Positions 2,914 to 39,617 of a DNA stretch of 64,000 nt are shown here, in pieces; the stretch's first letter is position 1, and each line of letters starts with the position of its first letter. This DNA comes from Flavobacteriia bacterium (GTDB taxonomy: Bacteria; Bacteroidota; Bacteroidia; Flavobacteriales; Schleiferiaceae), in contig JABXHW010000030.1 of assembly GCA_013373425.1 (NCBI GenBank), positions 42,836 through 106,835 on the forward strand, in the 5' to 3' direction. The notes under the pieces are model-generated. The model worked only from the letters and a program-made list of their open reading frames with translations. It made no database searches and was not told the DNA's origin. Made by a program: the position numbers and the translations under genes.

Positions 2914-4266
2914 ATGTCGAATGTGATCAAAATCCGCAAAGGATACGACATCAAGCTTATAGGGGCCGCAGAACAGAAGTTCGGCGACGCTCCTTCAGTA
3001 AGCCATTACGCGCTTATTCCCGACGATTTTACAGACGTAATTCCAAAACTCGAAGCACGCGAGGGCGACAAGGTCCTAGCTGGTGATCCTGTTTTCCACA
3101 TTAAAGGAAAAGAGGCTATCAAGGTTTGCGCGCCAGTGAGTGGAGAGATTGCTGAAGTAGTTCGTGGAGCTAAGCGTAAAATTGAAGCTATCCGCATTTT
3201 GCCGGACAGCGAAGTAAAATACCGTGACTTCGGTGTGAGCAATCCTGCTGACTTATCTCGCGAAGACATCATCAAGCGCATGCTAGACAGCGGCGTTTGG
3301 GCGAATGTTGAGATGCGTCCTTATGGCAGAATTGCAGATCCTGAAGATCAGCCTAAGGCGGTTTTCATCTCAGGGATGAATACCAATCCATTGGCTCCGG
3401 ATATGAACTTCGTTATGTCAGGTTTGGAAAGTGAATTCCAAACGGGCATCAATGCCTTGGCAAAATTGACAGAAGGAAAGATTCATCTCTCGCTTGAGGC
3501 AGGGGTGAAGGCTTGTCCAGCTTTCGAAAATGCGCAAGGAGTGACGAAGCACTTCTTCTCAGGTCCGCATCCTGCAGGTAATGTTGGAACTCAAATTCAC
3601 CACATCGACCCAATCAACAAGGGCGAGGTAGTTTGGACCATGAAGCCTCAGGACGTTGTTGTACTTGGTCGTCTTTTCGCTGAAGGAAAGTACAGAGCTG
3701 AGCGCATCGTTGCATTGACGGGTTCGGAAGTAGAGCAGCCTATGTATTACCGCCTAACTTCAGGTGCGTCGTTAAAGGGTTTGTTCGAGTCGGGCATCAA
3801 AGGAACTAACAACCGTTACATCTCAGGAAACGTCCTCACTGGTCGTTCTGCTGGAGCCGAGGGCTACCTTGGTTTTAATGATGAGCAGTTGACTGTAATT
3901 CCTGAGGGTGATCAAACAGAGTTCTTGGGCTGGGTTCTTCCTGGTTTCGGCAAGTTCTCATTGTCACGCACCTTCTGGAGCTGGCTCACGCCAAATAAGA
4001 AGTTCAAACTCGACACTAACATGCACGGTGAAGAGAGAGCTTTTGTAGTTACAGGACAGTACGAGAAAGTTTTTCCATTTGATATCTATCCTCAGCAGTT
4101 GGTTAAGGCCATTATGGTTCGCGACCTCGAGTTGATGGAGAACTTGGGTATTTACGAAGTAACCGATGAAGACTTTGCGCTTGCTGAGGTGATTTGTACT
4201 TCCAAGATTCCATTGCAGGAGACTGTGCGTGAAGGATTGGATTTCATGTATCAAGAAATGAATTAA
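2914..4266 (+). CDS. nqrA: Na+-NQR subunit A
   Basis: This 450-residue protein is the peripheral cytoplasmic, quinone-associated subunit of the Na+-translocating NADH:ubiquinone oxidoreductase, which oxidises NADH and pumps Na+ outward. The N-terminus (KIRKGYDIKLIGAAEQ) and the following biotinyl-like hammerhead region (VKVCAPVSGEI-type, about residues 65-85) are typical, and the length equals that of characterised NqrA. It is the first gene of a complete nqrABCDEF cluster in canonical order, 10 nt ahead of nqrB. ATG at 2914 is the natural start and no better alternative exists. Confidence 0.97.
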   Translation: MSNVIKIRKGYDIKLIGAAEQKFGDAPSVSHYALIPDDFTDVIPKLEAREGDKVLAGDPVFHIKGKEAIKVCAPVSGEIAEVVRGAKRKIEAIRILPDSEVKYRDFGVSNPADLSREDIIKRMLDSGVWANVEMRPYGRIADPEDQPKAVFISGMNTNPLAPDMNFVMSGLESEFQTGINALAKLTEGKIHLSLEAGVKACPAFENAQGVTKHFFSGPHPAGNVGTQIHHIDPINKGEVVWTMKPQDVVVLGRLFAEGKYRAERIVALTGSEVEQPMYYRLTSGASLKGLFESGIKGTNNRYISGNVLTGRSAGAEGYLGFNDEQLTVIPEGDQTEFLGWVLPGFGKFSLSRTFWSWLTPNKKFKLDTNMHGEERAFVVTGQYEKVFPFDIYPQQLVKAIMVRDLELMENLGIYEVTDEDFALAEVICTSKIPLQETVREGLDFMYQEMN

Positions 4267-4276
4267 GAGAAGACCT

Positions 4277-5482
4277 ATGAAATTTATTCAAGATCTACTC
4301 GATAAGGCTCGCCCAGCGGTTACTACCGGAAAGTTGAAGCCATTATATCCGCTACACAATGCCATCGAGACGATGATGTTTGTTCCGGATCACACTACTC
4401 ACAGTGGAGCTCACGTACGTGACTCTATCGATTTGAAGCGTACCATGGTGACTGTTATTTTCGCCTTGGTTCCTGCTTTGTTGTTCGGAATGTGGAACAT
4501 CGGTCACTGGCACTACATCGCCACCGGTGAATCTGAAACAATGGGCTTGATGGATAACGTGATTTACGGTGCCATCAAGTTGCTCCCAATGATCATTGTA
4601 ACCTATGCTGCTGGTTTGGGTGTAGAGATTTTGTTCTCTTACCTCCGCAAGCACCCGGTGAATGAGGGGTTCTTGGTTTCAGGTATTTTGATTCCATTGA
4701 TTATGCCAGCGGATATGCCACTTTGGATGGTGGCCGTATCAACCATCTTCGCCGTTCTTATCGGTAAAGAGGTATTCGGTGGAACGGGGATGAACATCCT
4801 CAACCCAGCACTTACTGCGCGTGCATTCGCATTCTTCGCTTATCCGAAGTCGATGTCTGGCGATAGCGCTTGGATCTCTGGTCTAGGTGGTGAAGGAATC
4901 GTTGACGGTTTCTCTGGTGCAACTGCACTTAGCCAGTTTGCTGCGGGAAACACTGCACCTGAAATTGCAGGTCACGCGTTGGATATGAAAAACGCATTCT
5001 TGGGAATTATCCCAGGTTCGATTGGTGAAACAAGCGTCCTCGCTATTTTGATTGGTGCCGCTATCCTTATCTACACAGGTATTGGTAGCTGGAAAATCAT
5101 GTTCAGCGGTGTTATTGGCGCATTGTTCATGGGATTGGTATTTAACTGGGTTGCTCCTTACGCAGCTACTCCAGCGGTATCTGATTTCATGGCTATCCCA
5201 CCACATTGGCACTTGCTCTACGGAGGTTTTGCTTTCGGTATTGTCTTTATGGCTACCGACCCAGTATCTGCATCGCAGACTGAAAAGGGTAAATGGATTT
5301 ATGGATTCCTCACTGGATTCTTCTGTATTGCGATTCGTGTATTCAACCCAGGTTTCCCTGAAGGTGTGATGCTCGCTATCCTCTTCATGAATGTGATGGC
5401 TCCATTGATTGACCACTACGTTGTACAAGCAAACGTCAAGAAGCGTCAGAAGCGCGCACAACTAGCGAACGCAAACGCCTAA
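4277..5482 (+). CDS. nqrB: Na+-NQR subunit B
   Basis: This 401-residue integral membrane subunit holds riboflavin and a covalently bound FMN and forms part of the Na+ path. It has about ten hydrophobic segments. The sequence FSGATALSQ (about residue 215) contains the threonine that ApbE links to FMN through a phosphoester in NqrB proteins. The amino-terminal soluble segment of about 50 residues is also typical. Spacing to nqrA is 10 nt and to nqrC 4 nt, so the cluster is clearly one transcription unit. The matching flavin transferase gene apbE lies 4.6 kb downstream on the same strand. Confidence 0.97.
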   Translation: MKFIQDLLDKARPAVTTGKLKPLYPLHNAIETMMFVPDHTTHSGAHVRDSIDLKRTMVTVIFALVPALLFGMWNIGHWHYIATGESETMGLMDNVIYGAIKLLPMIIVTYAAGLGVEILFSYLRKHPVNEGFLVSGILIPLIMPADMPLWMVAVSTIFAVLIGKEVFGGTGMNILNPALTARAFAFFAYPKSMSGDSAWISGLGGEGIVDGFSGATALSQFAAGNTAPEIAGHALDMKNAFLGIIPGSIGETSVLAILIGAAILIYTGIGSWKIMFSGVIGALFMGLVFNWVAPYAATPAVSDFMAIPPHWHLLYGGFAFGIVFMATDPVSASQTEKGKWIYGFLTGFFCIAIRVFNPGFPEGVMLAILFMNVMAPLIDHYVVQANVKKRQKRAQLANANA

Positions 5483-5486
5483 GATC

Positions 5487-6194
5487 ATGGATAAAAACAG
5501 TAATACTTATACGTACATCTTCGCCTTGATCATGGTAACTGTAGTTGCCGCGTTGCTTTCAGGCGCATCCATCGCATTGAAGGATCGTCAGGAAATGAAC
5601 GTTGAACAAGAGAAGCAACAGAGCATCCTCAAGTCGATTGGGGTAAACTTGGACCGCGCACAGTCTGCGGAGCAGTTCAGCAATTATATCACTGAGCAAT
5701 TGGTTATTCAAAATGGTTCTGCGATTGAATCGGAAACTTCAGCTTTCGATATCAAAATGGACGAGGCAATCGATTTGTCGGTTGAAGAACGTCAGGTTCC
5801 ACTTTATGTAGCCACCAAGAATGATACTACATTCTACGTAATTCCTCTTCGTGGAAAGGGATTATGGGGTCCGATTTGGGGCTACATTTCACTCCTCGAT
5901 GATGGCAACACCGTTTATGGTACTACATTCGACCACAAGAGTGAAACTCCTGGTCTAGGTGCGGAAATCGTTGGTGATCAATTCCAAAATCAATTCTTTG
6001 GAAAAGAGATCATGAACAACGGTGAATTCGTTTCAGTATCGGTTGTAAAAACTGGGGCGAGCAACGAGCACGAAGTAGACGGCATCTCTGGAGGTACAAT
6101 TACTTCTGTAGGTGTAGATAAGATGTTGGACGATTGTCTTCGTCCTTATGTAGGATATTTCAACAATCGCGCGACAGCGCTCAACGCAGAGTAA
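5487..6194 (+). CDS. nqrC: Na+-NQR subunit C
   Basis: This 235-residue protein has one N-terminal membrane helix ([18 protein letters not shown]) followed by a periplasmic FMN-binding domain. The flavinylation motif appears as [14 protein letters not shown] near residue 200. The threonine is kept, but the usual SGAT reads SGGT, a mild variant. [19 protein letters not shown] is the typical FMN-domain core. The gene starts 4 nt after nqrB and ends 1 nt before nqrD. Its FMN should be attached by ApbE, encoded at 10068-11063. Confidence 0.96.
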
Positions 6195-6195
6195 T

Positions 6196-6864
6196 ATGAG
6201 CACAGAAACGCAAGAAGTAGCAAAGAAAAGCGAGCCGCTATTCTCAAAGAAGAACCGTCGTTTGATGACGGATCCGTTAAATGAGAATAACCCGATTACC
6301 GTTCAGGTTTTGGGCATTTGTTCGGCCCTCGCTATTACTGTAAAGCTGGAACCAGCGATTGTAATGTCCCTTTCGGTATTCTTCGTATTGGGTGCGGGTA
6401 ACGTTATCATTTCATTGATGCGTAACCTCATTCCTAACCGAATCCGTATCATCGTTCAATTGGTTGTGGTTGCCTCATTGGTAATCTTGGTTGACCAGAC
6501 TTTGAAAGCATTCCTCTACGACGTCAGCAAGCAGCTTTCGGTATTCGTAGGTTTGATTATCACCAACTGTATCATCATGGGTCGTTTTGAGGCATTCGCT
6601 TTGGGTAACACCCCTTGGAAATCATTCCTCGATGCAGTAGGTAACGCTGCAGGATACGGTGCCATCTTGATTATGGTAGCATTCGTTCGTGAACTATTCG
6701 GTTCAGGAGCGTTGTTCGGTGTTGATGTGTTGAGCTGGACCGGTATCTACGAGATTGGATACGTTAACAACGGTATGATGTTGTTGCCTCCGATGGCCTT
6801 GATCATTGTAGCGATCATCATCTGGATTCAACGTAGCCGTACCAAGTCATTGATTGAAGAATAA
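6196..6864 (+). CDS. nqrD: Na+-NQR subunit D
   Basis: The 222-residue protein has about six membrane helices and resembles RnfE/NqrD. The segment [13 protein letters not shown] carries the conserved cysteine next to the intramembrane iron site shared with NqrE. An N-terminal hydrophilic extension of about 25 residues precedes the first helix. The ATG follows the nqrC stop almost directly (TAATATGAG), consistent with translational coupling. It is followed by nqrE after 22 nt. Confidence 0.96.
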
Positions 6865-6886
6865 CCGGAAGTAAAGAGATATAACG

Positions 6887-7504
6887 ATGCAAGAATTAGC
6901 AAGCATATTCGTAAAGAGCATCTTTACAGACAACATGATCTTCGCATACTTCCTTGGTATGTGTTCATACCTCGCGGTATCGAAAACGGTTAAGACCGGT
7001 GTTGGCTTGGGTGCAGCTGTAATTTTCGTTTTGGGCATTACTGTTCCGGTGAACTATTTGCTCGAAAACTATGTGCTCCAGAAAGGAGCATTGACATGGA
7101 TTAGTGCCGATTTCGCAGAAGTTGATTTGAGCTTCTTGAGCTTTATCATGTTCATCGCGGTTATCGCATCTATCGTTCAGTTGGTTGAGATGATTGTTGA
7201 GCGTTTCGCTCCAGCTCTCTATTCAGCCTTGGGCATCTTCCTTCCATTGATCGCGGTAAACTGTTCGATCTTGGGTGGAGCACTCTTCATGCAAGAGCGT
7301 GGATACAACACGATTGGTGAAGCAACTACTTTCGGATTGGGTAGTGGTGTGGGTTGGTTCCTAGCCATCGTAGCCATTGCAGCTATCCGCGAAAAGATTC
7401 GTTACTCAGCTGTACCTGCGCCACTTCGTGGATTGGGTATCACCTTTATCATTACAGGTTTGATGGGTATCGCTTTCATGAGCTTCATGGGAATTAACTG
7501 GTAA
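6887..7504 (+). CDS. nqrE: Na+-NQR subunit E
   Basis: The 205-residue membrane protein has about six helices. Near residue 125 it carries the conserved [15 protein letters not shown] segment, whose cysteine helps hold the Fe or [2Fe-2S] centre at the NqrD/NqrE interface. It is homologous to RnfA. The start chosen gives [18 protein letters not shown], typical for the family. Position and spacing fit the canonical nqr order. Confidence 0.96.
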
Positions 7505-7528
7505 TTGAATTAGGAAAAAGAAAAGAAT

Positions 7529-8836
7529 ATGTTCTTAGCAAGCGCAACGACCGTTATCGGACTTAGCCTAGCTGCCTTCCTAGCAGTAATCGTACTTCTT
7601 GTTACGATTCTCCTTCAGGCAAAAGCGCGTTTGGCTCCATCCGGACCAGTGAAGCTCGATATCAACGGCGAAGAAAAAGAAGTAGAATCAGGAAGCACAC
7701 TCCTTCAAGTGTTGAGCAACGAAAAGATTTTCTTGCCTTCAGCTTGTGGTGGCGGTGGTACTTGCGGTATGTGTAAGTGTCAGGTTACCGAAGGTGGTGG
7801 TGAAATCCTTCCTACTGAAACAGGGTTCTTCAACCGTAAGCAAATCCAAGACGATTGGCGTTTGGGTTGCCAGGTGAAGGTGAAGAACGATATGAAAATC
7901 AAGGTTCCTGAAGAAATCTTCGGAATTAAGAAGTGGGAGTGTGAAGTTGTTTCTAACTACAACGTTGCATCCTTCATTAAGGAGTTCGTGGTGAAGCTTC
8001 CTGAGGGAGAAACTCTCGACTTCGAAGCGGGTGGTTACATCCAGGTGGACGTTCCACCAATCGAAGTAGACTTCAAGGACATCGATATTACGGCCCACCC
8101 AGACCTTGGACGTGATCCAATGGACTTCAAGAGCGAATGGGATAAGTTCGGTCTTTGGGATCTTAAGATGAAGAATGACGAGGAAATTTTCCGCGCTTAT
8201 TCTATGGCCAACCACCCTGCAGAAGGGAACATCATCATGTTGAATATTCGTATCGCTACTCCACCATGGGATCGCAAGAAGAACCAGTGGATGGACGTGA
8301 ATCCGGGTATCTGTTCTTCTTTCGTATTCGGAAGCAAGCCAGGCGACAAGGTGACTATCTCTGGTCCTTACGGTGAATTCTTCATCAAGGAGACCAACGC
8401 AGAGATGTTGTACATCGGTGGTGGTGCAGGTATGGCTCCAATGCGTTCACACCTCTTCCACTTGTTCCACACGTTGAAGACCGACCGTAAGGTGAGCTTC
8501 TGGTACGGTGGGCGTTCGAAGCGTGAGCTCTTCTATTTGGAGGATTTCCGCGGTATCGAGCGTGAATTCCCTAACTTCAAGTTCCACGTTGTTCTTTCTG
8601 AGCCATTGCCAGAAGATAAGTGGAATGCGAAGGAATCTATGGAAGATGAAGGTGATGGATTCACTGGTTTCGTACACCAAGCAGTTATCGATAACTACTT
8701 GAGCAAGCACGACACTCCAGAAGAAATCGAGTTCTATTTCTGTGGACCTCCTTTGATGAACGCAGCGGTTATCAAAATGTGTGATGACTTCGGTGTTCCA
8801 GAAGAGAACGTATCATTTGACGACTTCGGAGGATAA
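7529..8836 (+). CDS. nqrF: Na+-NQR subunit F, NADH-oxidising flavoprotein
   Basis: This 435-residue subunit takes electrons from NADH. An N-terminal membrane helix is followed by a plant-type [2Fe-2S] ferredoxin domain (ACGGGGTCGMCKC at about residues 70-82, with a later cysteine in LGCQVKV). Next comes a ferredoxin-reductase FAD domain (RAYSMANHP) and an NAD-binding domain (YIGGGAGMAPMRS), with FDDFGG at the C-terminus. All expected cofactor motifs are intact. It is the last gene of the operon and is followed by a strong intrinsic terminator 25 nt after the stop. Confidence 0.98.
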   Translation: MFLASATTVIGLSLAAFLAVIVLLVTILLQAKARLAPSGPVKLDINGEEKEVESGSTLLQVLSNEKIFLPSACGGGGTCGMCKCQVTEGGGEILPTETGFFNRKQIQDDWRLGCQVKVKNDMKIKVPEEIFGIKKWECEVVSNYNVASFIKEFVVKLPEGETLDFEAGGYIQVDVPPIEVDFKDIDITAHPDLGRDPMDFKSEWDKFGLWDLKMKNDEEIFRAYSMANHPAEGNIIMLNIRIATPPWDRKKNQWMDVNPGICSSFVFGSKPGDKVTISGPYGEFFIKETNAEMLYIGGGAGMAPMRSHLFHLFHTLKTDRKVSFWYGGRSKRELFYLEDFRGIEREFPNFKFHVVLSEPLPEDKWNAKESMEDEGDGFTGFVHQAVIDNYLSKHDTPEEIEFYFCGPPLMNAAVIKMCDDFGVPEENVSFDDFGG

Positions 8837-10067: not shown

Positions 10068-11063
10068 ATGCTCAGACTTCTAAGTTTCATTTCGGTGCTT
10101 TCGCTCTTGATTTCATGTGGTGGTCCTGATGAGTACATCGTAACCTTACAAGGAAACACGCAAGGGACAACGTATAAGATTCTCTATGTGGTGGATCAAC
10201 CGATTCGATACAATGAGGCAGTAGATTCCATTCTATTTGCAGTGGATAGAAGCATGTCAGCATGGAATCCGCACAGCACACTGAGTAAGGTCAACCGAGG
10301 AATGGATTCACTGTTGGACCCACTCTTTCAGCAAGTCATCAAGAGGGGATTGCAAGTCTCGCAAATGACAAATGGCGCATTTGATATGACCGTTGCTCCT
10401 TTGGTCAATGCCTGGGGATTTGGTTCTATGGAGAAAGCGGATGTGGATTCCGCATATGTGGACAGCCTGCTGGGAATATCTGGCTACAAGCGACTTCACT
10501 TATTGTCGAGTGGCAGATTGCACCGCCCGGATGGAATGCAAATCGACGTCAATGCCATTGCCCAAGGCTATTCTGTGGATTTGGTTGCTGATTACCTTGA
10601 AAGCAAAGGCATCAATAATTACCTCATTGAAATTGGTGGGGAGATGCGTGCCAATGGGACCAAGTTCGGTAACAATTCGTGGGTGGTTGGGATTGATAAA
10701 CCGATGGAGACCATTCAGGAAGAGCGCTTTCAGATTACCTTGAATCTCGACACGATGTCGCTTGCTACGAGCGGTAATTATCGAAAATTCATTGTCGATG
10801 AAGAAACCGGTATCAAGTATAGCCATACCATCGACCCGCACACAGGTTACCCTGTCAGTGACCGTTTGCTCAGCGCAACTATTCTATCGCCTGATTGTAT
10901 GACTGCAGATGCAGTGGCCACCGCTTGCATGGTCATGGGCTTGGACAACGCCAAGGTTTGGGTTCAAGAACAACCCGAGTTTGAAGCTTACTTCATTTAT
11001 TCTGACTTAACCGGCGACCTGCAAGAATGGTGGACGCCGGGGTTTGAGAAGAGGAAGAGGTAG
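10068..11063 (+). CDS. apbE: FAD:protein FMN transferase
   Basis: ApbE moves FMN from FAD onto threonines of target proteins, classically NqrB and NqrC, in the periplasm. The 331-residue product is a lipoprotein (LLISCGGPDEY). It carries the family blocks GNTQGTTYKI (about residue 30), DVNAIAQGYSVD, YLIEIGGEMRANG, SHTIDPHTGYPV and MTADAVATACMVMG, the last giving the Mg2+/FAD-binding aspartate and threonine region. The length is normal. Its position 1.2 kb downstream of nqrF, on the same strand but with its own promoter-like box, fits a dedicated role in flavinylating the Na+-NQR subunits encoded here. Confidence 0.95.
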   Translation: MLRLLSFISVLSLLISCGGPDEYIVTLQGNTQGTTYKILYVVDQPIRYNEAVDSILFAVDRSMSAWNPHSTLSKVNRGMDSLLDPLFQQVIKRGLQVSQMTNGAFDMTVAPLVNAWGFGSMEKADVDSAYVDSLLGISGYKRLHLLSSGRLHRPDGMQIDVNAIAQGYSVDLVADYLESKGINNYLIEIGGEMRANGTKFGNNSWVVGIDKPMETIQEERFQITLNLDTMSLATSGNYRKFIVDEETGIKYSHTIDPHTGYPVSDRLLSATILSPDCMTADAVATACMVMGLDNAKVWVQEQPEFEAYFIYSDLTGDLQEWWTPGFEKRKR

Positions 11064-13528: not shown

Positions 13529-13560
13529 TTGTACAATTACTTTCAATTCACATATATTTG
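13529..13560 (+). promoter_or_regulatory. Promoter of the beta-glucan operon
   Basis: TTG (13529-13531) and TATATTTG (13553-13560) are separated by 21 nt, a good flavobacterial promoter. The ORF track starts its protein at the TTG inside this -7 box, which shows that the true start must be the ATG at 13585, 24 nt downstream. Confidence 0.7.
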
Positions 13561-13584
13561 AAACTCATCATTAGTACTTCACCC

Positions 13585-14331: not shown

Positions 14332-14335
14332 GCCT

Positions 14336-15667: not shown

Positions 15668-15683
15668 TTTAGGCCATAACCTC

Positions 15684-20990: not shown

Positions 20991-21002
20991 AACAGGAAGA
21001 GG

Positions 21003-23215: not shown

Positions 23216-23219
23216 CGCT

Positions 23220-24041
23220 ATGAAATTGAGATATACATTCTTGTTCATCATTGGATTCATACTCCAAGGCTGCACGCAATCGAATCCCGTGTTCAATGCA
23301 CGTGAAGGAGATACCTTGACTTTCTCAGGAAGAAAGTGGACTATTAAACACAGTGTGGGGCTACAAGGTCCCGGCCCCAATCTCTTTTCCAAGCATCCAA
23401 ACGATGTTTTTGTAGATGAGAATGGGTACCTGCACCTAACGATATCATTGCGTGAAAATCAGTGGCAATCCACCGAGGTAATCTCCGAAGAGAACATGGG
23501 CTATGGAACCTACATCTGGACACTCGAAGGAGATCCTGTGAATATCGATGAACAGGCAGTTATTGGTCTATTTACCTGGGACAATAATACTTTTCAAGAA
23601 CAGGCGAACAGCGAAGTGGACATTGAATTCTCAAAATGGGGAGATGCGAGTGAAACGCAGACACTTCAATATGGCGTTCAACCGATATTCTTTGGTCCTT
23701 ACAACGAAGAGCGCGTGGACCAGCCTCAAGAGAACAGCGACAATTGGATCGGAGTGAGCACGCATGCCTTCACTTGGACAGATACATTGATTACCTGGCA
23801 GAGTTGGATTGGGTCGGAGTATGGGGCTGGCGAGCCAGATGCTAGCTGGTCGTTCGATTTAGATAATCCCGCAAAGATCAAGTACGAAGGGAACAATCAA
23901 AGCGACCCTATCATCATTCCTGCTCCTGGTGAAACTACCAATGCCAGGATGAACTATTGGTTGTTGAGCGGACTCGACGGTCCGAATTCGCAAACGCGAC
24001 ATGAGATTATCATTCGCAAGTTCGATTATATCCCACTATAA
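23220..24041 (+). CDS. GH16-like lipoprotein, EVDIE type
   Basis: This 273-residue lipoprotein (lipobox FILQGCTQS) has a GH16-type jelly roll. The catalytic segment SEVDIEFSKWG gives E132, D134 and E136. This is the short ExDxE form without the beta-bulge, as in lichenases and xyloglucan-active relatives. MGYGTYIWTLEGD corresponds to the substrate-binding strand seen in the superfamily. It differs from the second GH16 of the operon (EIDVLE), so the two should differ in linkage preference or cut position. Whether it still hydrolyses or only binds glucan cannot be decided from the sequence. Confidence 0.75.
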   Translation: MKLRYTFLFIIGFILQGCTQSNPVFNAREGDTLTFSGRKWTIKHSVGLQGPGPNLFSKHPNDVFVDENGYLHLTISLRENQWQSTEVISEENMGYGTYIWTLEGDPVNIDEQAVIGLFTWDNNTFQEQANSEVDIEFSKWGDASETQTLQYGVQPIFFGPYNEERVDQPQENSDNWIGVSTHAFTWTDTLITWQSWIGSEYGAGEPDASWSFDLDNPAKIKYEGNNQSDPIIIPAPGETTNARMNYWLLSGLDGPNSQTRHEIIIRKFDYIPL

Positions 24042-24058
24042 CCTAACCTTACATCACT

Positions 24059-25630
24059 ATGTCGACTTCCGTAAATTCTTCGGCGTTGATCCGTATTGCC
24101 CTCATCGTGGCACTTGGCGGATTGCTTATGGGCTTCGATGCTTCTGTTATTTCAGGAGTAAATAAGTTTATCAAACTTGAGTTTGAATTGACCGACTTCC
24201 AGCTTGGGTGGGCGGTGAGTTCTCTGACGCTGATTGCTGCCTTAGCTATGCTGGTTTCTGGACCTTTAAGCGATCGCTATGGTCGCCGTGCTGTACTTCG
24301 CGTGGCATCTGTTCTCTATGCAATTTCTGCATTGGGTTCGGCTTTAGCTCCAGATTTTACTTGGTTGGTAGTCTTCAGGATGATAGGCGGATTGGGCGTT
24401 GGCGCTTCATTGATCCTTGCACCAATGTACATCGCGGAGATTGCACCATCGGAAGAACGAGGCAAGCTCGTATCATTCAACCAGCTCAACATCGTAATCG
24501 GTATTACACTGGCTTACTTCACAAACTTACTGATTGTTGACCTTGGAGATTCCGATTTGGCCTGGGTGGAGAGTTTGGGAATCAAGGAGCACAATTGGCG
24601 CTGGATGTTGGGTCTTGAAGCTGTTCCAGCCGTTCTCTATTTCTTATGTCTATTCATGGTGCCGAGAAGTCCACGTTGGTTGCTAATGCAAGGCAAGAGT
24701 GAAGAGGCTACAAGAATCTTTGCTCGTTTCTTCGATCCAGCTCGAATCAAAGAAGAGGTGAGTTCTATTGTTGAGAGCTTAGACAATCCAGATAAGAATA
24801 AATCAAGGGTTAAAGATCTGTTTAACCCTGCCCTTAAACTCGTTCTCACCATTGGATTGGTGATGGCAGTACTCCAGCAGATCACCGGTATTAACGCGGT
24901 CTTCTTCTATGCACCTATGATATTTGAACAAACCGGAATTGGAACCGATGCGTCCTTGATGCAAGCTGTTCTCGTTGGATTGGTCAATCTCGTTTTCACC
25001 GTCATAGCGATGATCGTTATTGATCGTTTAGGACGAAAACCGCTCCTGATCATCGGTGTATTGGGTATCACTTTGAGCATGGCAACATTGAGCTATTCGT
25101 TCAGTCAGGCTACATATACCTACAACGAAGATTCATTCAAGAACATCGAGTGGGAGATGGGTACAGGTCAGCCTGAAACCATCAATGCTGCTTCTTTCGA
25201 CAATCGTTCTGAATTTAGAGCACACCTGCAGGCTGAAGTCAGCGAAGTTACATGGGAGAAGCACAGAGCAGACATCACGAATCACAGCATCGGTGTCGAC
25301 GGATGGGTGGTGCTTATTGCCATCCTGGTCTTTGTAGCCTCTTTCGCGGTTTCTGTAGGGCCCGTAATGTGGGTGCTCTTTTCTGAATTATTCCCAACCA
25401 TGATTCGCGGGTTGGCCATCGCCGTAGTTGGACTGGTAAATTCATTGGTTAGTTTCGGAGTTCAATTGGTATTCCCGTGGGAGCTTGACGCACTCGGCAG
25501 TACAATCACATTTGCTCTTTATGGTGGATTTGCCTTCTTCGGACTCATATTCATCTTGAGAGTGGTTCCTGAAACTAAAGGCCGAACCCTCGAGCAAATC
25601 GAAGATGAACTTGTAACCAATAAATCATGA
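24059..25630 (+). CDS. MFS sugar porter
   Basis: This 523-residue transporter is from the sugar-porter branch of the major facilitator superfamily, with 12 membrane segments. Signature motifs are DRYGRRA after helix 2, DRLGRKP after helix 8, ITGINAVFFYAP in helix 7 and PETKGRTLEQIE at the C-terminus. Such proteins move glucose, xylose or disaccharides, usually with protons. An insert of about 60 residues between helices 9 and 10 (YNEDSFKNIEWEMGTG onward) is longer than in E. coli XylE and may face the periplasm. The operon thus holds both a Na+-coupled and a probably H+-coupled or facilitative importer. Confidence 0.9.
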   Translation: MSTSVNSSALIRIALIVALGGLLMGFDASVISGVNKFIKLEFELTDFQLGWAVSSLTLIAALAMLVSGPLSDRYGRRAVLRVASVLYAISALGSALAPDFTWLVVFRMIGGLGVGASLILAPMYIAEIAPSEERGKLVSFNQLNIVIGITLAYFTNLLIVDLGDSDLAWVESLGIKEHNWRWMLGLEAVPAVLYFLCLFMVPRSPRWLLMQGKSEEATRIFARFFDPARIKEEVSSIVESLDNPDKNKSRVKDLFNPALKLVLTIGLVMAVLQQITGINAVFFYAPMIFEQTGIGTDASLMQAVLVGLVNLVFTVIAMIVIDRLGRKPLLIIGVLGITLSMATLSYSFSQATYTYNEDSFKNIEWEMGTGQPETINAASFDNRSEFRAHLQAEVSEVTWEKHRADITNHSIGVDGWVVLIAILVFVASFAVSVGPVMWVLFSELFPTMIRGLAIAVVGLVNSLVSFGVQLVFPWELDALGSTITFALYGGFAFFGLIFILRVVPETKGRTLEQIEDELVTNKS

Positions 25631-26847
25631 TAATTAGATCAGCAATTCTCACACTGGCGGTTTTGCTTATTTCTTGCCAATCAGAGCAAGAATGGATCAT
25701 TGATGATAATTCGTATATCCGATTTAAGGCAGAAGATCTGGTCCAAGTGGATAGCAACTCCTGGGAAATCCCTTTTACGGTTGATGTGACGACTTCCGGC
25801 AGATATATCGTTCGACCTTATCAAATGGACACAGATACTGTTGAGATGTGGTTGGAGGATTACGTGGATAACAAGGATGAAAGAACGTACAATGTGACAG
25901 GCACCATGCATGTCTTCAATACTCGTGAAACGAACCCTCGAGATGTAGAGCAAGTACATGGATCTCCGCTAGGAGAAGGACGCCATCACATGAAGCTTCA
26001 CCTCAATCGTGGGGACATAGAGGACATTTTTCTTGAGTTTGAATTGATCCAGTCGCACAAAGCCTCGGAAGAGGTTCTGACGCAGTCGATGTCTGGAGAA
26101 GTATGGACACAAGTATGGGGAGATGAATTCAATGAAGATGGTTTGCCTGATACTACCAAATGGACCTACGATGTGGGTGATTGGGGCTGGGGAAACAATG
26201 AGCTTCAGTATTACACAGTCGCAGATGCTCGCAATGCACACGTCTCGGATGGAACTTTGAAAATCACCGCTCGACGAGATTGGGAGGGAAACTGGACTTC
26301 AGCTCGTTTGACGACTCGCGGCAAGACTGCGTTCACTCACGGACGAATCGAGTTCAGAGCAAAGGTGCCCACCCATCGTGGAACTTGGGCTGCTGGATGG
26401 CTGTTGGGCAACGAATACGTAGACGAGATTTCTTGGCCTTACTGCGGTGAAATCGATGTCCTAGAATGCGTGGGCTTTGAGATTGACGATACCATAGGGC
26501 AAGGACTCAATCACGCCACATGCCACACAAGGAAGTACTATTTCAAGCAAGGCAATCAGATTGGTGCCGAGATAGAGGTGGATAGTATGAATACGGTTTT
26601 TCACACGTATGCCATTGAGTGGGATGAGAAAGAGGTTCGAGCTTTTTTGGATGGTGAGCATTACTACACCTACGACAAGAATGCCGATGAACTAGAATGG
26701 CCGTTTAACGATCCTCAGAACATTATCATCAACCTCGCTATTGGCGGTGGTTGGGGAGGCGCTCAAGGCATGTCGGATTTCGACAATGCCGTGTATGAGC
26801 TCGACTATGTAAGAGTATATGAGCGTGCAACTTCAATCGTTCCATGA
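25627..26847 (+). CDS. GH16 beta-1,3-glucanase-type lipoprotein
   Basis: The 406-residue lipoprotein (VLLISCQSE) has an N-terminal beta-rich region of about 150 residues and then a GH16 catalytic domain (about 155-400). WPYCGEIDVLECVG gives the ExDxxE motif with beta-bulge (E275 nucleophile, D277, E280 acid/base), the form found in laminarinases. WGNNELQYYT, GRIEFRAKVP and NLAIGGGWGG are further beta-1,3-glucanase hallmarks. Expected activity is endo-cleavage of laminarin-type beta-1,3-glucan at the surface or in the periplasm. ATGA overlaps join it to the MFS gene before and the GH30 gene after. Confidence 0.88.
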   Translation: MIIRSAILTLAVLLISCQSEQEWIIDDNSYIRFKAEDLVQVDSNSWEIPFTVDVTTSGRYIVRPYQMDTDTVEMWLEDYVDNKDERTYNVTGTMHVFNTRETNPRDVEQVHGSPLGEGRHHMKLHLNRGDIEDIFLEFELIQSHKASEEVLTQSMSGEVWTQVWGDEFNEDGLPDTTKWTYDVGDWGWGNNELQYYTVADARNAHVSDGTLKITARRDWEGNWTSARLTTRGKTAFTHGRIEFRAKVPTHRGTWAAGWLLGNEYVDEISWPYCGEIDVLECVGFEIDDTIGQGLNHATCHTRKYYFKQGNQIGAEIEVDSMNTVFHTYAIEWDEKEVRAFLDGEHYYTYDKNADELEWPFNDPQNIIINLAIGGGWGGAQGMSDFDNAVYELDYVRVYERATSIVP

Positions 26848-28331
26848 GAATCCTTGTACTCACCGTTTCATTACTTTTTTTAGTCTCCTGTTCGAATGAA
26901 AACAATTGGAGTTCTTCCGCCGTGGTCACCTCGGCTGAAGGTCACAAATGGACTCCAGTAGAGGAGGGGATAGAGGGAGAGGCCTCAACGACACTTGTTC
27001 TACAACCTGAACTCACCTATCAAGAAATTTTGGGTATTGGAGGCGCATTCACTGAGTCGAGTGCAGCTCTGCTCAATGCTATGCCTGAATCCATTTACGA
27101 TTCCATCATTCAAGCTTATTTCAGTGAGGAAGGGTGCAACTACACCTTGACGCGCACCCACATGGCCAGTTGTGATTTTTCATTAGCGCCCTATTCCTAT
27201 GATGAGGTTCCAGGAGATACAGCCTTGGAATACTTCACTATTGAGCCTGATCGAGACGATTTGATTCCCATGATAAAACGCGCTCAAGATGCTTCGCCGT
27301 CAGGGTTCAATATCATCGCTTCGCCGTGGACCGCTCCACCGTGGATGAAGGATAATGAAGCCTGGTTTGGAGGAAGTTTGAAGGAAAAATTTTATCCCGT
27401 TTGGGCCGACTTTTTTGCCAATTACATCGAGGCATATGCCGAGGAAGGTATTGACCTCTGGGGCGTGACTGTAGAGAATGAGCCTCTTGGAAACGATGCC
27501 CACTGGGAGAGTATGCATTACACTCCTGAGACGATGGGACAGTTCGTGTCCCAGCATTTAGGTCCGCGTTTAGCCGATGTAAATCCTGATTTGCAGATTC
27601 TCCTCTACGATCAAAACAGAGGCGAGGAACTTGTAGAGTGGGGCGAGCATTTGCTTCACGATGATGCCGTGTTGGAATACGCGGATGGCTTTGCGGTACA
27701 CTGGTACAACAGCACTTATGACGTCTTCCCTGAATCATTGGATGCCATTCACGAAATGCAGCCCAATCTTCATTTGATTGAAACCGAGGGTTGTGTAGAT
27801 GCTGAAAAGCCAGCTTGGCAAAATGATGCTTGGTATTGGGACACCACCGCCACCGACTGGGGATTTGATTGGGCGAAAGAAGAGGATAAATACTTACACA
27901 GGCCTTACGTACCGGCCTATCGATACGCAAGGGATATCATCGGTTGTCTGAACCATTGGGTAGAAGGCTGGATTGACTGGAATATGGTCCTTGATCAAGA
28001 AGGCGGTCCCAACCACGTTTCCAACTGGTGTGTTGCTCCCGTGCTAGTGGATACCACAAAACAAGAAGTGTATTTCACGCCCCTTTACTTTGTCATGGGG
28101 CAATTCAGTAAATACATCAAGCCGGGCGCTCACCGCATCGGGTTTGAAACAAGTAAGAGTGAATTGCAGATGACCGCCATCGAGAATCCACAAGGAGACT
28201 TGGTCGTCTTTGTCTTGAATGAAGGACCAGAGGAATCCTTGAGAATTGAAATCGGTGAACAGGGATTTGAGTACATTATTCCTGCTCGCAGCATTGAAAC
28301 AATACATCTAACTCGAGAAATCGAAGAATGA
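26844..28331 (+). CDS. GH30 lipoprotein, probable beta-1,6-glucan or beta-glucoside hydrolase
   Basis: This 495-residue lipoprotein (LFLVSCSNE) has a GH30 barrel plus side beta-domain. EILGIGGAFTESSA is the typical GH30 opening. GVTVENEPLG carries the acid/base E213, and HLIETEGCVD the nucleophile, best placed at E315 by comparison with glucocerebrosidase (SEAC). The C-terminal strand region ends with PARSIETI, as in subfamily 1. In marine laminarin loci, GH30_1 enzymes remove beta-1,6-linked glucose side branches, which fits here. It overlaps both neighbours by 4 nt. Confidence 0.88.
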   Translation: MRILVLTVSLLFLVSCSNENNWSSSAVVTSAEGHKWTPVEEGIEGEASTTLVLQPELTYQEILGIGGAFTESSAALLNAMPESIYDSIIQAYFSEEGCNYTLTRTHMASCDFSLAPYSYDEVPGDTALEYFTIEPDRDDLIPMIKRAQDASPSGFNIIASPWTAPPWMKDNEAWFGGSLKEKFYPVWADFFANYIEAYAEEGIDLWGVTVENEPLGNDAHWESMHYTPETMGQFVSQHLGPRLADVNPDLQILLYDQNRGEELVEWGEHLLHDDAVLEYADGFAVHWYNSTYDVFPESLDAIHEMQPNLHLIETEGCVDAEKPAWQNDAWYWDTTATDWGFDWAKEEDKYLHRPYVPAYRYARDIIGCLNHWVEGWIDWNMVLDQEGGPNHVSNWCVAPVLVDTTKQEVYFTPLYFVMGQFSKYIKPGAHRIGFETSKSELQMTAIENPQGDLVVFVLNEGPEESLRIEIGEQGFEYIIPARSIETIHLTREIEE

Positions 28332-31300
28332 CGAAGATATTTTCCGGCAATCAAGAGTTGCACCACAGAACCGCTGAAGTTTCAGGTGAACTCGTTAACA
28401 TCGACGGTGAAAGATTCTATAAGATTGAGCATGTAGATCACATGCGACATTTTTTCATGAGCGTTGTCAGTGCTTATGATCACTGGCTTTTTATATCCAG
28501 CAACGATGGAATCACGGCTGGACGAAACTCTGCGGAGAAAGCACTTTTCCCATATTACACAGCCGACCTGATCATCCATGATGCTTCGCGAACAGGTGGA
28601 TATACCAGTGTTCGAGTGCACACGGATGAAGGACTCAAGCTTTGGCGTCCATTATCCAATCACTACCGAGGAATTTATCGGGTTTGGAAGAATGCGTACA
28701 AGAATGCTGCTGGAAACCGACTCATTCTTGAAGAGGTGAATGAAGACCTGGGATTGGTTTTCACTGTGGAGTGGACAAGTGCCAAGAAGGAGGGAATCAT
28801 CCGCAGATGCGCATTGACGAATACATCTGACAAAGCGGTTAAGCTGGATATCCTTGATGGACTCTTGAATGTAATGCCAGCGGGGATTAGTCCGGAGATG
28901 CAGCAAATGAAAAGTGTGCTCGTGGATGGATATCGTCACACGGAACTCGACGAAGAAACGGGCTTGGCCATGTTCAATTTGGGCTCTAAAATTGTAGATA
29001 AAGCAGAACCGAGCGAGTCGCTTTCTTCCAACGTGGTTTGGAATGCCGGACTTAAAAGAGAAGCCGTTTTGCTCTCCTCTGCGCAGATTCCTGTGTTTGG
29101 AGCTGGAGGAAAAGTAGAAAACGAACCATACGTGAGAGGCCAGAAAGGTGCGTACCTGGTTCAATCTACATTAGCGCTAGAGCCAAAGGAAATCAAAGAA
29201 TGGGTGGTGGTTGGAGATGTAGACCTGTCTACCGCTCAAGTGGCGAATACAATGGCCTCATTGAAATCGGGAGAGTTCTCATTCGAAGCGACCATCCGCG
29301 GAATTGATGAAGGAACCCTCGCTTTGCAGAAGCTCGTGGCCATGAATGATGGTCAGCAGCGCACAGGCGATGTGAGCACAGAGATGCGTCATCACAACAA
29401 CGTACTTTTTAACGTCATGCGAGGCGGACTTTTCCGCAAAGGGTACGCGGTGCAAATTGCGCATTTACGTGATTTTGTTACCCACTATAACAAAGGGTAT
29501 GCGTCGGTTTTCGATGCGCATTTCAAAGGTGATGTATTGACTTACCCGGAGCTTTTATCCAAGTTAGATTCTATTGAGCACTCAGGACTGAAGCGACTTT
29601 GCACCATGTATTTGCCATTGTCTTTCAGTAGGCGACATGGCGATCCATCCCGACCTTGGAATAAGTTTGACATCCAATCAGACGCCAATGAAGCCGGAAC
29701 CTATGAAGGAAACTGGCGCGACATCTTCCAGAATTGGGAGGCGATGTCGTATTCCTATCCGCATTACATCTTTGGAATGATATACAAGTTCCTCAACTCT
29801 TCTACGATTGACGGGTACAATCCGTATCGAATCACGGAAGAGGGAATCGATTGGGAAGTCATTGAGCCTGATGATGAATGGTCTTATATCGGGTACTGGG
29901 GCGATCACCAGATTGTGTATTTACACCGTTTACTCGTGCATGCTGAGAAGCATTTCCCGGGTCGACTTTCGAAAGCCCTGCGTGAAAAGTCGTTCGCATA
30001 CGCGAATGTGCCGTACCGTATCAAGGGATTTGATGCTATCAAGCTTAACCCTAAGGATACGATTGATTATGACTTTGATGTAGCGGACCAGGTAGAGAAG
30101 CGCAAAGAGAAAATCGGTGAAGATGGAGCTATGGTTCCTGACGATCAAGGCTATCTCCTAGAGGCTACATTGCTTGAAAAGCTCATGGTTCCACTCTTGG
30201 TGAAGCTCTCGAATTTTGTCCCGAATGGCGGTATTTGGCTCAACACTCAACGTCCCGAATGGAACGACGCGAACAATGCTTTGGTAGGCTATGGTATGTC
30301 TGTGGTTACAATCGGACAAATGGTACCCTTCATAGACACACTCATCGATTTGATCGAGCGTGATGCCAGTGCTGATTTTGAGGTCAATGAAAATGTTGCT
30401 CAACTCTTCAGTAGGGTCTATGAAGTGTTGAAGAATGCTGAACCTTCTGAATCCATGATGGGCGCACGTGTTCGAGCTGAGGTTGTTGAGTCGTTGGGTA
30501 GGGCTGGTGAGACTTATCGTCAGAACGTGTATGACTCTGTTAGCTCAAATCGATCAAAACTCAATCCGAAGGATATTCTGGAGGCTCTAAATACTTTCAA
30601 GGCACATCTTCAAGCTACTTTGGCAAGTAACCGAAGAGATGACAGTCTGTTCCACTCTTACAATTTGATGAATTGGGAAGGGGATGGTTTGGAGATCGAA
30701 CGACTGCCGCTTATGTTGGAAGGTCAGGTAACGGCTTTGCCATCGCTAGCGAGTAACAAAGCGGAATTGAAGCGGACGTTAGAAGCGCTTTTCAAAAGTG
30801 CGTTGTATCGAAAGGATCAAGACAGTTTCATGCTGTATCCGAACCGCGATATGCCGAGAACACTTGCTAAGAATACCTTGTCGAAGGACGAGCTGAAGGG
30901 CAATGTGCTGATTGAGATGATGCATTTAAATGCGGATTTCAGGATAATCGAATTGGACAAAGCGGGAGGACTTCACTTCAATGCTTCCCTTCACAATGCG
31001 GATGCCTTGAGAGAGGTGTTGGAGTCCTTGAAAGCGGAAGGACTGGAGAAAGAAGTGGAGGCCAGTGCTTATCAGTTATTGGATGCTTATGAGCGTAAGT
31101 TCAATCACCGAGCGTTTACGGGAAGATCAACTACATTCTTTGCTTTTGAAGGACTGGGATCGATTTACTGGCACATGGTTTCAAAGCTCTATCTCGCATC
31201 TCTAGAAACAATATGCGATACGGATTTGGCTGAATCGAGGGACGAAGAGTTGCTTGACATTGCCGCTCATATGAAACGCGGCATTGGCGCTCAGAAATCC

Positions 31301-31759
31301 CCAGAGCAATATGGAGCCTTTCCAACCGATCCATATTCACATACCCCAGCTCATGCGGGAGCTCAACAGCCTGGAATGACGGGTCAGGTGAAGGAGGATG
31401 TTTTGTCGAGATGGATTGAATTGGGTGTTCGTGTAAACGACGGACAGTTGTCATTTGCTCCTATTCGTCTGAGCCGTCAAGAGCAACTCTCAGAAGCCAT
31501 TGAGCTCAAATACATGGACGCCGCCTTTAATTGGAAATCGATTAATGTAGCTCCGGGCGAACTCGCCTTCACCTATTTAGGCATTCCTGTCATTTACTCC
31601 GAGGGCGAAAAAGACGAACTCAGAATCCAGTTTGCTTCAGGCAGCACGAAAGAGCTTTCCGGACTCAAGCTTTCTCCAGAATTAAGCGCGGAATGCTTCG
31701 AGAGGAAATCTGGCGTTGAGGTGGTGAGAGTTGTGTTGAGTAGCGGCAGATGGGGGTGA
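28328..31759 (+). CDS. Large cytosolic beta-glucan phosphorylase (GH94/GH149/GH161-like)
   Basis: The 1143-residue protein has no signal peptide and so acts in the cytoplasm. The N-terminal beta-sandwich region (HFFMSVVSAYDHWLFISS, GITAGRNSAEKALFPYYT) and the alpha/alpha-barrel with RPEWNDANNAL (E644-D647) resemble inverting disaccharide phosphorylases. D647 lines up with the catalytic acid of the DWND motif in GH94. The length is far above the roughly 800 residues of GH94 cellobiose phosphorylases and fits the beta-1,3-oligoglucan phosphorylases of GH149 or GH161 better; I cannot separate those by eye. Expected reaction: oligoglucan plus phosphate gives shorter glucan plus glucose 1-phosphate. 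It is the last gene of the operon. Confidence 0.78.
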   Translation: MTKIFSGNQELHHRTAEVSGELVNIDGERFYKIEHVDHMRHFFMSVVSAYDHWLFISSNDGITAGRNSAEKALFPYYTADLIIHDASRTGGYTSVRVHTDEGLKLWRPLSNHYRGIYRVWKNAYKNAAGNRLILEEVNEDLGLVFTVEWTSAKKEGIIRRCALTNTSDKAVKLDILDGLLNVMPAGISPEMQQMKSVLVDGYRHTELDEETGLAMFNLGSKIVDKAEPSESLSSNVVWNAGLKREAVLLSSAQIPVFGAGGKVENEPYVRGQKGAYLVQSTLALEPKEIKEWVVVGDVDLSTAQVANTMASLKSGEFSFEATIRGIDEGTLALQKLVAMNDGQQRTGDVSTEMRHHNNVLFNVMRGGLFRKGYAVQIAHLRDFVTHYNKGYASVFDAHFKGDVLTYPELLSKLDSIEHSGLKRLCTMYLPLSFSRRHGDPSRPWNKFDIQSDANEAGTYEGNWRDIFQNWEAMSYSYPHYIFGMIYKFLNSSTIDGYNPYRITEEGIDWEVIEPDDEWSYIGYWGDHQIVYLHRLLVHAEKHFPGRLSKALREKSFAYANVPYRIKGFDAIKLNPKDTIDYDFDVADQVEKRKEKIGEDGAMVPDDQGYLLEATLLEKLMVPLLVKLSNFVPNGGIWLNTQRPEWNDANNALVGYGMSVVTIGQMVPFIDTLIDLIERDASADFEVNENVAQLFSRVYEVLKNAEPSESMMGARVRAEVVESLGRAGETYRQNVYDSVSSNRSKLNPKDILEALNTFKAHLQATLASNRRDDSLFHSYNLMNWEGDGLEIERLPLMLEGQVTALPSLASNKAELKRTLEALFKSALYRKDQDSFMLYPNRDMPRTLAKNTLSKDELKGNVLIEMMHLNADFRIIELDKAGGLHFNASLHNADALREVLESLKAEGLEKEVEASAYQLLDAYERKFNHRAFTGRSTTFFAFEGLGSIYWHMVSKLYLASLETICDTDLAESRDEELLDIAAHMKRGIGAQKSPEQYGAFPTDPYSHTPAHAGAQQPGMTGQVKEDVLSRWIELGVRVNDGQLSFAPIRLSRQEQLSEAIELKYMDAAFNWKSINVAPGELAFTYLGIPVIYSEGEKDELRIQFASGSTKELSGLKLSPELSAECFERKSGVEVVRVVLSSGRWG

Positions 31760-37067: not shown

Positions 37068-37101
37068 AAAATAAAATCCCCCTCCAATTTCTCGGAGAGG
37101 G
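37068..37101 (-). terminator. Terminator of the small Cys-rich membrane protein gene
   Basis: On the minus strand CCCTCTCC-GAGAAATT-GGAGGGGG forms an 8-bp stem with one G-T pair, followed by ATTTTATTTT. It lies 29 nt after the stop at 37130. Confidence 0.75.
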
Positions 37102-37129
37102 ACATTCTATATTTCAACTTGGCTCGGGT

Positions 37130-37345
37130 TTATGCTTGGGCCTTGTCTTCATTTTTGCACATTTGATCTGGAGTGGCGCCACAGAAGCTACACGATTCGC
37201 CCTCTTTGTTTAGGAATGGGCTCTGGCTCGCGCAAGTTCCAGCGAACTCACCGTCCTTCTTTGCCCAAATCTTGATGGCAATTCCCAAAAATCCAACGCC
37301 AATCAATCCAAAGGCGAGTAAAAAGAGTTTCAATTCAACAGACAT
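37130..37345 (-). CDS. Small membrane protein with four cysteines, candidate NqrM
   Basis: The 71-residue protein has one N-terminal membrane helix (LFLLAFGLIGVGFLGIAI) and a short tail with four cysteines (GTCASQ, then SCSFCGATPDQMC). Helix plus four-cysteine tail in about 70 residues is the plan of NqrM (DUF539), the maturation factor needed to put iron into NqrD/NqrE in Vibrio. Bacteroidota homologues are usually annotated only as membrane or secreted protein. Together with nqrABCDEF and apbE in this window it would complete the Na+-NQR assembly set. The assignment is a proposal; the cysteine spacing differs from that in Vibrio. Confidence 0.6.
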   Translation of the reverse strand: MSVELKLFLLAFGLIGVGFLGIAIKIWAKKDGEFAGTCASQSPFLNKEGESCSFCGATPDQMCKNEDKAQA

Positions 37346-37398: not shown

Positions 37399-38418
37399 TT
37401 ACAAAATGTTGACCTCTGGCGTGAGTTTTACCCCGAAACGTTTATCGATATCCTCAATGATGTCAAGAGCCAATTTATAGACTTCCTGACCACGCGCTTC
37501 TCCATAGTTAACAAGAACAAGGGCCTGACGTTCATGAACTCCAGCATCTCCCCTTCGAAAGCCTTTCCAGCCCGCCTCTTCAATCAACCATCCGGCAGCC
37601 AATTTCATGCGACCTTCACCGGCAGGGTAGGCCACCACTTCAGGATACTCTGCATGAATTCGCTCATATTCCGATATAGCAACCACAGGGTTCTTGAAGA
37701 AACTACCACTATTTCCGATTTCTTGCGGGTCGGGCAACTTACTCTGACGAATAGCTATCACCGCATCTGAAACTTCCTTGATAGAAGGAGATGAGATGCC
37801 GCGTTTCTCCAACTCGGCTTGAATGGCTCCGTATTCCGTACGAATAGTGTGATTCTTTTTGGAGAGTTTAAATCGAACATCTGTGATAATAAACTTGCCT
37901 TTCAACTCGTGCTTGAAGATGGAATCACGATAACCAAATTGGCAATCTTGTAATGTGTATGTCTTCTTTGCACCTGAACCCAATTCAATACCGTCGAGAG
38001 ATACAAAGTGATCTTTCAATTCAACGCCATAGGCTCCAATGTTCTGTACAGGAGCGGTGCCAACCTGACCCGGAATCAAGCTCAAATTCTCCAAACCACC
38101 ATAGCCTTCCTGAAGGGTCCATAGAACAGTTTGGTGCCAATTTTCACCGGCTTGAACTTCAACGATAACATAGTCGTCATTTTCCTCGATAACCTGATGT
38201 CCACGAAGAGCGATATTCACGACTAATCCATCAATAGGTCCCGTGAGAAGCAAGTTAGACCCTCCTCCAAGAATCAGTTTCAGGTTCGAAACGGCCGCTT
38301 CATCTGTAGCGAATTCAACCACATCCTCTTCATCTTGAAGAACCCACACTTCGCGTGCCGATTCGTCCAAGCCAAAGGTGTTAAACCGTTGTAACGATGG
38401 ATTCTGGTACTTTCTCAT
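37399..38418 (-). CDS. murB: UDP-N-acetylmuramate dehydrogenase
   Basis: MurB reduces UDP-GlcNAc-enolpyruvate to UDP-MurNAc in peptidoglycan synthesis. The 339-residue protein is a type I MurB. LGGGSNLLL binds FAD, GLENLSLIPGQVGTAPVQNIGAYG is the FAD-domain hallmark, GYRDSIFK holds the type I Tyr loop, and IGNSGSFFKNP contains the catalytic serine. PEVNIL at the C-terminus holds the second catalytic acid. Its start overlaps the stop of the upstream aminotransferase gene by one base. Confidence 0.97.
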   Translation of the reverse strand: MRKYQNPSLQRFNTFGLDESAREVWVLQDEEDVVEFATDEAAVSNLKLILGGGSNLLLTGPIDGLVVNIALRGHQVIEENDDYVIVEVQAGENWHQTVLWTLQEGYGGLENLSLIPGQVGTAPVQNIGAYGVELKDHFVSLDGIELGSGAKKTYTLQDCQFGYRDSIFKHELKGKFIITDVRFKLSKKNHTIRTEYGAIQAELEKRGISSPSIKEVSDAVIAIRQSKLPDPQEIGNSGSFFKNPVVAISEYERIHAEYPEVVAYPAGEGRMKLAAGWLIEEAGWKGFRRGDAGVHERQALVLVNYGEARGQEVYKLALDIIEDIDKRFGVKLTPEVNIL

Positions 38419-39617
38419 TAAACGTAGCGTCCAGGGTATTCTTCGAGTGCGCGGCGAATGATTTCAACCGACTTCTTCAATGTCTCTTTGTTGAGCACAT
38501 AGGCCAGTCGAGCCTGGCGCTTACCCAATCGAGGTTGGGCGTAGAAACCAGAAGCCGGTGCAATCATAACAGTTTCACCTTCGTAGTCGAACGACTGAAG
38601 TAACCATTGTGCAAAGCGATCGGCATCATCAACAGGGAGTTGTGCAACGGCATAAAATGCTCCTTTCGGCATCGGGCAGAATACACCTTCGATGCTATTC
38701 AATCCTTCAACCAAGATGTTTCTGCGCTCAACATATTCATCGTTCACTTCTGTGAAGTAGGTGTCAGGTGTGTCGAGGGCAGCTTCCACTGCAATTTGAG
38801 CATAGGTAGGAGGACTCAATCGAGCTTGGGCGAACTTCAATGCGGTACGCATGAAGATGGTATTTCGAGATACGAGCATCCCAATACGAGCACCACACAT
38901 AGAGTATCGCTTAGATACGGAGTCAATCATGATGGCGTGATCCTTCAATTGGGGAATGCTCATGATGCTGTAGTGCTTCACCCCGTCGTAAACAAACTCG
39001 CGATAGACTTCATCTGCGATGAGGAAGAGGTTGTATCGAACCACTAATTCCGCAAGCTTTGCAATCTCCTCAGGAGAATAGAGGTACCCCGTTGGGTTTC
39101 CTGGATTGCAAATGAGAATGGCTTTGGTTTGCTCAGTAATGAGGTCTTCAAATCGCTCAATAGGAGGAAGGGCAAATCCATTTTGAATAGTTGCCTCAAC
39201 CGGAACCACTTTTACTCCATTCTGAATGGCGAATCCATTGTAGTTCGCATAAAATGGTTCTGGAACGATCACTTCATCACCCTCGTCCATGATGGCGCCG
39301 AAAGCGAATGTAAGTGCTTCTGAACCACCAGTGGTGACCATTACATCGGATGCCTCAACATCAATGTTATTCTTTCTGTAGTAGTCGGCTAGGCCTTCAC
39401 GAAGTGATTCGTTTCCGGCAGAGTGACTGTAGGCCAAGATATCGACGTTTGCTTTTTTCACGGCGTCACGAGCTCCTTTTGGAGTCTCAATATCAGGCTG
39501 ACCAATATTTAGATAGTGTACCTTTTTTCCTTCAGCTTCCGCAGCTTCCGCGAATGGAACTAACTTTCGAATAGGAGATTCTGGCATGGCCATCCCTTTG
39601 CTAGAGATCTTCGGCAT
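38418..39617 (-). CDS. Class I/II pyridoxal-phosphate aminotransferase
   Basis: This 399-residue enzyme of the aspartate-aminotransferase fold type I has YLNIGQPDIETP at the N-terminus, ICNPGNPTGYLYS for cofactor binding, IADEVYREFVYDG, and DSVSKRYSMCGARIGM holding the PLP lysine. RLAYVLN carries the carboxylate-binding arginine. The closest everyday annotation is aspartate or aromatic aminotransferase of the AspC/AspB type; substrate range is not readable from sequence. Co-transcribed with murB (1-nt overlap). Confidence 0.9.
   Translation of the reverse strand: MPKISSKGMAMPESPIRKLVPFAEAAEAEGKKVHYLNIGQPDIETPKGARDAVKKANVDILAYSHSAGNESLREGLADYYRKNNIDVEASDVMVTTGGSEALTFAFGAIMDEGDEVIVPEPFYANYNGFAIQNGVKVVPVEATIQNGFALPPIERFEDLITEQTKAILICNPGNPTGYLYSPEEIAKLAELVVRYNLFLIADEVYREFVYDGVKHYSIMSIPQLKDHAIMIDSVSKRYSMCGARIGMLVSRNTIFMRTALKFAQARLSPPTYAQIAVEAALDTPDTYFTEVNDEYVERRNILVEGLNSIEGVFCPMPKGAFYAVAQLPVDDADRFAQWLLQSFDYEGETVMIAPASGFYAQPRLGKRQARLAYVLNKETLKKSVEIIRRALEEYPGRYV

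Follow-up and report, generated by a model that had tools for sequence, protein, structure and literature searches.

The window analyzed here, a 64,000-nucleotide stretch of a contig from a Flavobacteriia bacterium of the family Schleiferiaceae, carries on its minus strand a 71-codon open reading frame (ORF) with an ATG start, whose product, here called type A, has the sequence MSVELKLFLLAFGLIGVGFLGIAIKIWAKKDGEFAGTCASQSPFLNKEGESCSFCGATPDQMCKNEDKAQA (Table 1). The preliminary description of the locus had noted a protein of 71 residues with one helix and four cysteines, and the ORF, structure prediction, and alignment bear this out. AlphaFold2, run with 25 homologues, predicted one confident helix spanning residues 3 to 28 (pLDDT of about 94 to 97) and gave the tail low confidence and no reliable fold. 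The cysteines are C38 (in GTC), C52 and C55 (in SCSFC), and C63 (in MC). All four are invariant in 31 of 31 aligned homologues, which come from the same taxonomic order, as are the surrounding motifs F-x-G-T-C-A-S and C-x2-C-G. The protein was claimed by no Pfam or NCBIfam family in profile searches, in agreement with its earlier listing as a family annotated as unknown, and a plasmid search with the protein as the query returned nothing convincing. Compared with the same-genus copy L002, the gene differs at 9, 3, and 37 sites in codon positions 1, 2, and 3, respectively; compared with the L003 copy, the corresponding numbers are 4, 2, and 28. This codon-position bias shows that the frame is not a chance ORF, and, judged from these substitutions, the gene is under strong purifying selection.

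Table 1. Coordinates of the features discussed (window positions unless a locus handle is given)
Feature	Position	Strand	Basis or remark
NqrM-like protein (type A) gene	37130..37345	-	ORF, codon-position bias, 31-member alignment
N-terminal membrane helix, codons 3-28	37262..37339	-	AlphaFold2; segment bearing the profile similarity to NqrM
Cys38 codon, G-T-C motif immediately past helix	37232..37234	-	Invariant in family; counterpart of the NqrM GSC cysteine
Cys52 and Cys55 codons (C-x2-C)	37181..37192	-	Invariant in family alignment
Cys63 codon	37157..37159	-	Invariant in family alignment
Terminator-like hairpin 3' of type A gene	37076..37103	-	Consensus match only; count of such matches not above shuffles
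murB, 53 bp upstream of type A gene	37399..38418	-	Conserved neighbour
Aspartate aminotransferase-like gene, start of probable operon	38418..39617	-	ORF
nqrABCDEF	2914..8836	+	Above cut-off of NCBIfam equivalogs
apbE flavin transferase	10068..11063	+	Abuts type A gene tail to tail in many relatives
Type B loci	L103:9712-9918, L106:10672-10890, ten more f31 loci		One-helix, no assigned family
Type C loci	L245-L248 (G285, G396, G293, G393)

The murB and type A genes are probably cotranscribed, and type A is the probable last gene of an aspartate aminotransferase-murB-type A operon. The nqrABCDEF and apbE genes, which the preliminary description had placed in the same window, are genuine, with nqrABCDEF scoring above the NCBIfam equivalog cut-off. 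NqrD keeps cysteines C42 and C125 and NqrE keeps C26 and C126, all of which putatively ligate the intramembrane cluster. The type A gene lies about 26 kb from apbE because other genes intervene, and it stays with murB and the aspartate aminotransferase gene. The block at 13558 to 31759, between apbE and type A, appears to be an arabinose-type cluster; it encodes a sugar transporter and a Na+/solute symporter together with a regulator of the AraR/NrtR type. A gene for a type IX secretion plug protein (1474 to 2730) is located directly upstream of nqrA and divergent from it, and in Parabacteroides a DUF5103-family gene (L142:800-2068) occupies the matching position.

Gene order was examined in 140 loci with a typical family match. 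The gene for NqrF was within reach in 42 of these, and 40 of the 42 share a single arrangement, in which nqrABCDEF and apbE are followed by the type A gene on the opposite strand (convergent, tail to tail), in most cases with a gap of 5 to 150 bp between apbE and type A. In one locus (L140), nqrABCDEF, apbE, and type A are collinear on one strand, a Vibrio-like order seen also for nqrF, apbE, and nqrM in Providencia. The gap between apbE and the type A gene is just 1.2 kb in L060, from a sister species. Adjacency to apbE or nqrF recurs in many families and provides independent support for an NqrM-like reading of type A. Upstream and on the same strand, murB was present in 75 of the 76 loci where it was found, and the aspartate aminotransferase gene in 56 of 58.

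Co-occurrence with Na+-NQR, a check proposed in the preliminary description, was determined in two genome sets. The type A family is present in 52 of the 60 nearest genomes, and 51 of these 52 have NqrA above cut-off; all 8 noncarriers lack NqrA and NQR. The remaining carrier, G009, was considered as a type A genome without NQR and rejected as such: its NqrF, encoded on another contig, scores above cut-off at 574.8 bits, so that nqrA is merely missing from the draft and NQR is present in 52 of 52 carriers. The second set sampled the phylum broadly, with 393 Bacteroidota genomes that were each 90% complete or better; of these, 71 have NqrA above cut-off and 322 do not. The family profile matched 57 of the NqrA-positive genomes and no NqrA-negative genome, so that every carrier is NqrA positive and the NQR-less presence named beforehand as a refutation was found in 0 of 322. 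The association is strong (Fisher p of about 1e-55 over 393 genomes, which are not independent samples). Three of the 57 carriers are weak matches that were rejected as type A and reclassified as type C, described below, leaving 54 with the four-cysteine form. Presence and absence also agree at close range: g21 holds both genomes with the family and NqrA (G140, G209, and G345) and genomes with neither (G038, G053, and others), and the genera g118 (G214/G338), g133 (G163/G174), and g175 (G298/G382) each include species of both kinds, a pattern implying that the two were lost or gained together more than once. Within the 393 genomes, the family is absent from those whose NqrA matches are all low scoring and of the RnfC kind; the link is therefore to NQR and not to the sister Rnf complex.

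The known maturation factor NqrM is represented in Pfam by PF04400 (DUF539), and the profile search suggested in the preliminary description was negative. PF04400 gave no match to the window protein at an E value of 10 or below (cut-off, 22 bits), none in its own genome, and none in the 393 Bacteroidota genomes, while 3 of 3 proteobacterial control records matched; membership of type A in PF04400 was accordingly rejected. "Bacteroidota NqrM", the name given earlier, thus stands as a functional label, backed by co-occurrence and synteny, and falls as a statement of Pfam membership. The failed match does not exclude homology, since the profile, which scores Klebsiella NqrM at 78.6 bits, barely reaches Rhodobacterales NqrM (Ruegeria, 25.6 bits). 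Profile-profile comparison with hhalign, using NqrM records from Klebsiella, Providencia, Enterobacter, Aeromonas, Proteus, Neisseria, and Rhodobacterales as the reference, gave 37.9 to 46.1 bits (probability of 92 to 96%) for type A and a second family, type B (see below), versus at most 18.4 bits for seven unrelated families with an N-terminal helix, NqrF and NqrC included. When the alignment was split, the helix part of type A scored 23.2 to 23.6 against column-shuffle maxima of 13.0 to 18.6, and the cysteine tail alone aligned with NqrM no better than shuffles did. With the similarity confined to the helix, common ancestry is likely and not proven, and by this comparison type A is probably a distant homologue of NqrM.

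In architecture, type A and NqrM (Vibrio, Klebsiella, Neisseria, and Rhodobacterales) have much in common: a length of about 70 residues, a single N-terminal helix with basic residues after it, a G-[ST]-C motif directly past the helix with three further cysteines downstream, and a tie to nqr with a position adjoining apbE. The C-x2-C pair is shared with the Rhodobacterales proteins. The two differ in that NqrM has GSCGG where type A has GTCAS[NQ], most type A members have one extra residue between the helix and the first cysteine, the tail sequence and cysteine spacing of type A (x13, x2, x7) are not those of NqrM, and the type A gene is mostly convergent to the nqr operon rather than inside it. 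In L158 to L164, Rhodobacterales NqrM reads GSC-x11-C-x2-C, a spacing nearer to that of Bacteroidota than the gammaproteobacterial C-x-C. ApbE is likewise an NQR maturation factor encoded beside NQR, but it is a flavin transferase and unrelated to type A as a protein. The FeoB-associated Cys-rich membrane protein (PF12669) and FixS/CcoS (PF03597) families are also small and one-helix, one of them is Cys rich, and they have links to iron or oxidase assembly; their scores are far below cut-off, and the context gives no reason to invoke them. A generic zinc-ribbon or FixS identity was rejected, as all scores behind it are below cut-off.

Most of the NQR genomes without four-cysteine type A were found to encode other small proteins. 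In family f31, 12 of 12 NQR genomes encode type B, a one-helix protein of 63 to 75 residues with the motif SGCCGGGxC, operon linked after nqrF. Type B was absent from the 63 NQR-less genomes tested, which include seven members of f31, and its profile comparison with NqrM gave 40.3 bits, again mostly from the helix. Type C, with the motif FPN[TG]H...GxxC, is present in four NQR genomes of families f25 and f26. It has a clear sequence relationship to type A (hhalign, 96.6%); a histidine replaces the first cysteine, C52 is kept, and the remaining cysteines are lost. Intact type C was seen only in NQR genomes. The type C gene of G429, a single-contig f25 genome with no NqrA, is interrupted by in-frame stops (L252, around base 1501), as expected for a gene whose client is lost. 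Types A, B, and C together cover 70 of the 71 NQR genomes. In the other, G320 (f32, 3% contamination), the nqr operon is complete (L110, about 3630 to 9321), and no candidate of the three types or of PF04400 was found; either the operon is a contaminant or the genome uses a fourth maturation factor. It is quite possible, and we put it forward tentatively, that the intramembrane iron-sulfur cluster of Bacteroidota NQR is served by three or more small helix proteins that exclude one another (A, GTCAS; B, SGCCGGG; C, FPNTH), none of them within the known NqrM family. If so, the maturation step would be universal and its metal-ligand set would have been rebuilt repeatedly.

We consider it likely that type A is a dedicated Na+-NQR maturation factor that takes the role of NqrM in Bacteroidota and passes iron to NqrD/NqrE. 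The intramembrane NqrD/E cluster has been established in Vibrio cholerae (PMC10643135), NqrM is reportedly needed for insertion of this [2Fe-2S] cluster (PMC12174285), and a role in supplying NqrD/E with Fe has been predicted for it (PMC6209661). In the mechanism that we propose, the N-terminal helix would anchor type A in the inner membrane beside NqrD/E, and the cysteine tail would lie in the cytoplasm, a placement suggested by the lysines that follow the helix. The four cysteines (G-T-C and then C-x2-C-x7-C) may be ligands for iron or for a [2Fe-2S] unit under assembly; by analogy with NqrM, the iron would then be handed to the cluster-holding cysteines of NqrD/NqrE. Co-occurrence, linkage, and architecture support such a putative functional equivalence with NqrM.

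Neither co-occurrence nor linkage can tell an assembly factor apart from an accessory subunit, and both would be predicted equally if type A were a small seventh subunit that stays in the Bacteroidota complex, its single helix and cysteines perhaps binding a cofactor. We regard this as unlikely, since the place beside apbE, a maturation gene, mirrors that of nqrM; since the loss of two or three cysteines in type C and the use of a different family in 12 genomes would be unusual for an integral subunit; and since a review of NQR describes six subunits (PMC12174285). Type A lies nearer to apbE than to nqrF, as it also might if it served ApbE or flavin insertion into NqrB/NqrC instead of iron insertion. 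That role is very improbable: Rnf, too, receives its flavin from ApbE (PMC12174285), yet genomes with RnfC-kind matches only have no type A, and the presence of four invariant cysteines suggests a metal. Next to no weight can be given to a last alternative, in which type A is an unrelated membrane protein, small and zinc- or metal-binding, that tracks NQR only because the sampled lineages share ancestry (a marker of respiratory or marine lifestyle). The weak zinc-ribbon and FixS look-alike scores and the operon with murB rather than nqr in the window might speak for it. Against it stand the concordance within genera, the 0 of 322 NQR-less carriers, and the recurrence of physical linkage to nqr/apbE across distant families.

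A maturation role for type A would bear on the phylum that is the probable birthplace of Na+-NQR (PMC4014512), where there is no NqrM-profile match in the genomes searched, yet NqrD and NqrE keep the cluster cysteines. No account of a Bacteroidota NqrM turned up in a literature search that did not reach the two principal papers on NqrM. With a candidate whose profile matches 57 of 71 NQR genomes and no NQR-less genome, and with two substitutes that account for most of the rest, the missing maturation step can be put to a direct test, and the type A factor would help heterologous production of Bacteroidota NQR, an enzyme complex discussed as a drug target (PMC12682751).

Variant copies of the type A gene were also noted. 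In G011, a helix-less partial second copy of the tail (PPCASQSPFLNKEDEACSFSGALPAEQC; L050:4210-4329) lies 1.2 kb from the intact gene and looks like a decaying duplicate. A divergent member in G352 (L132:4310-4576) has the tail end GTCAGSNIKMKEKGITCGCGPEGC, with a C-x-C spacing like that of gammaproteobacterial NqrM.
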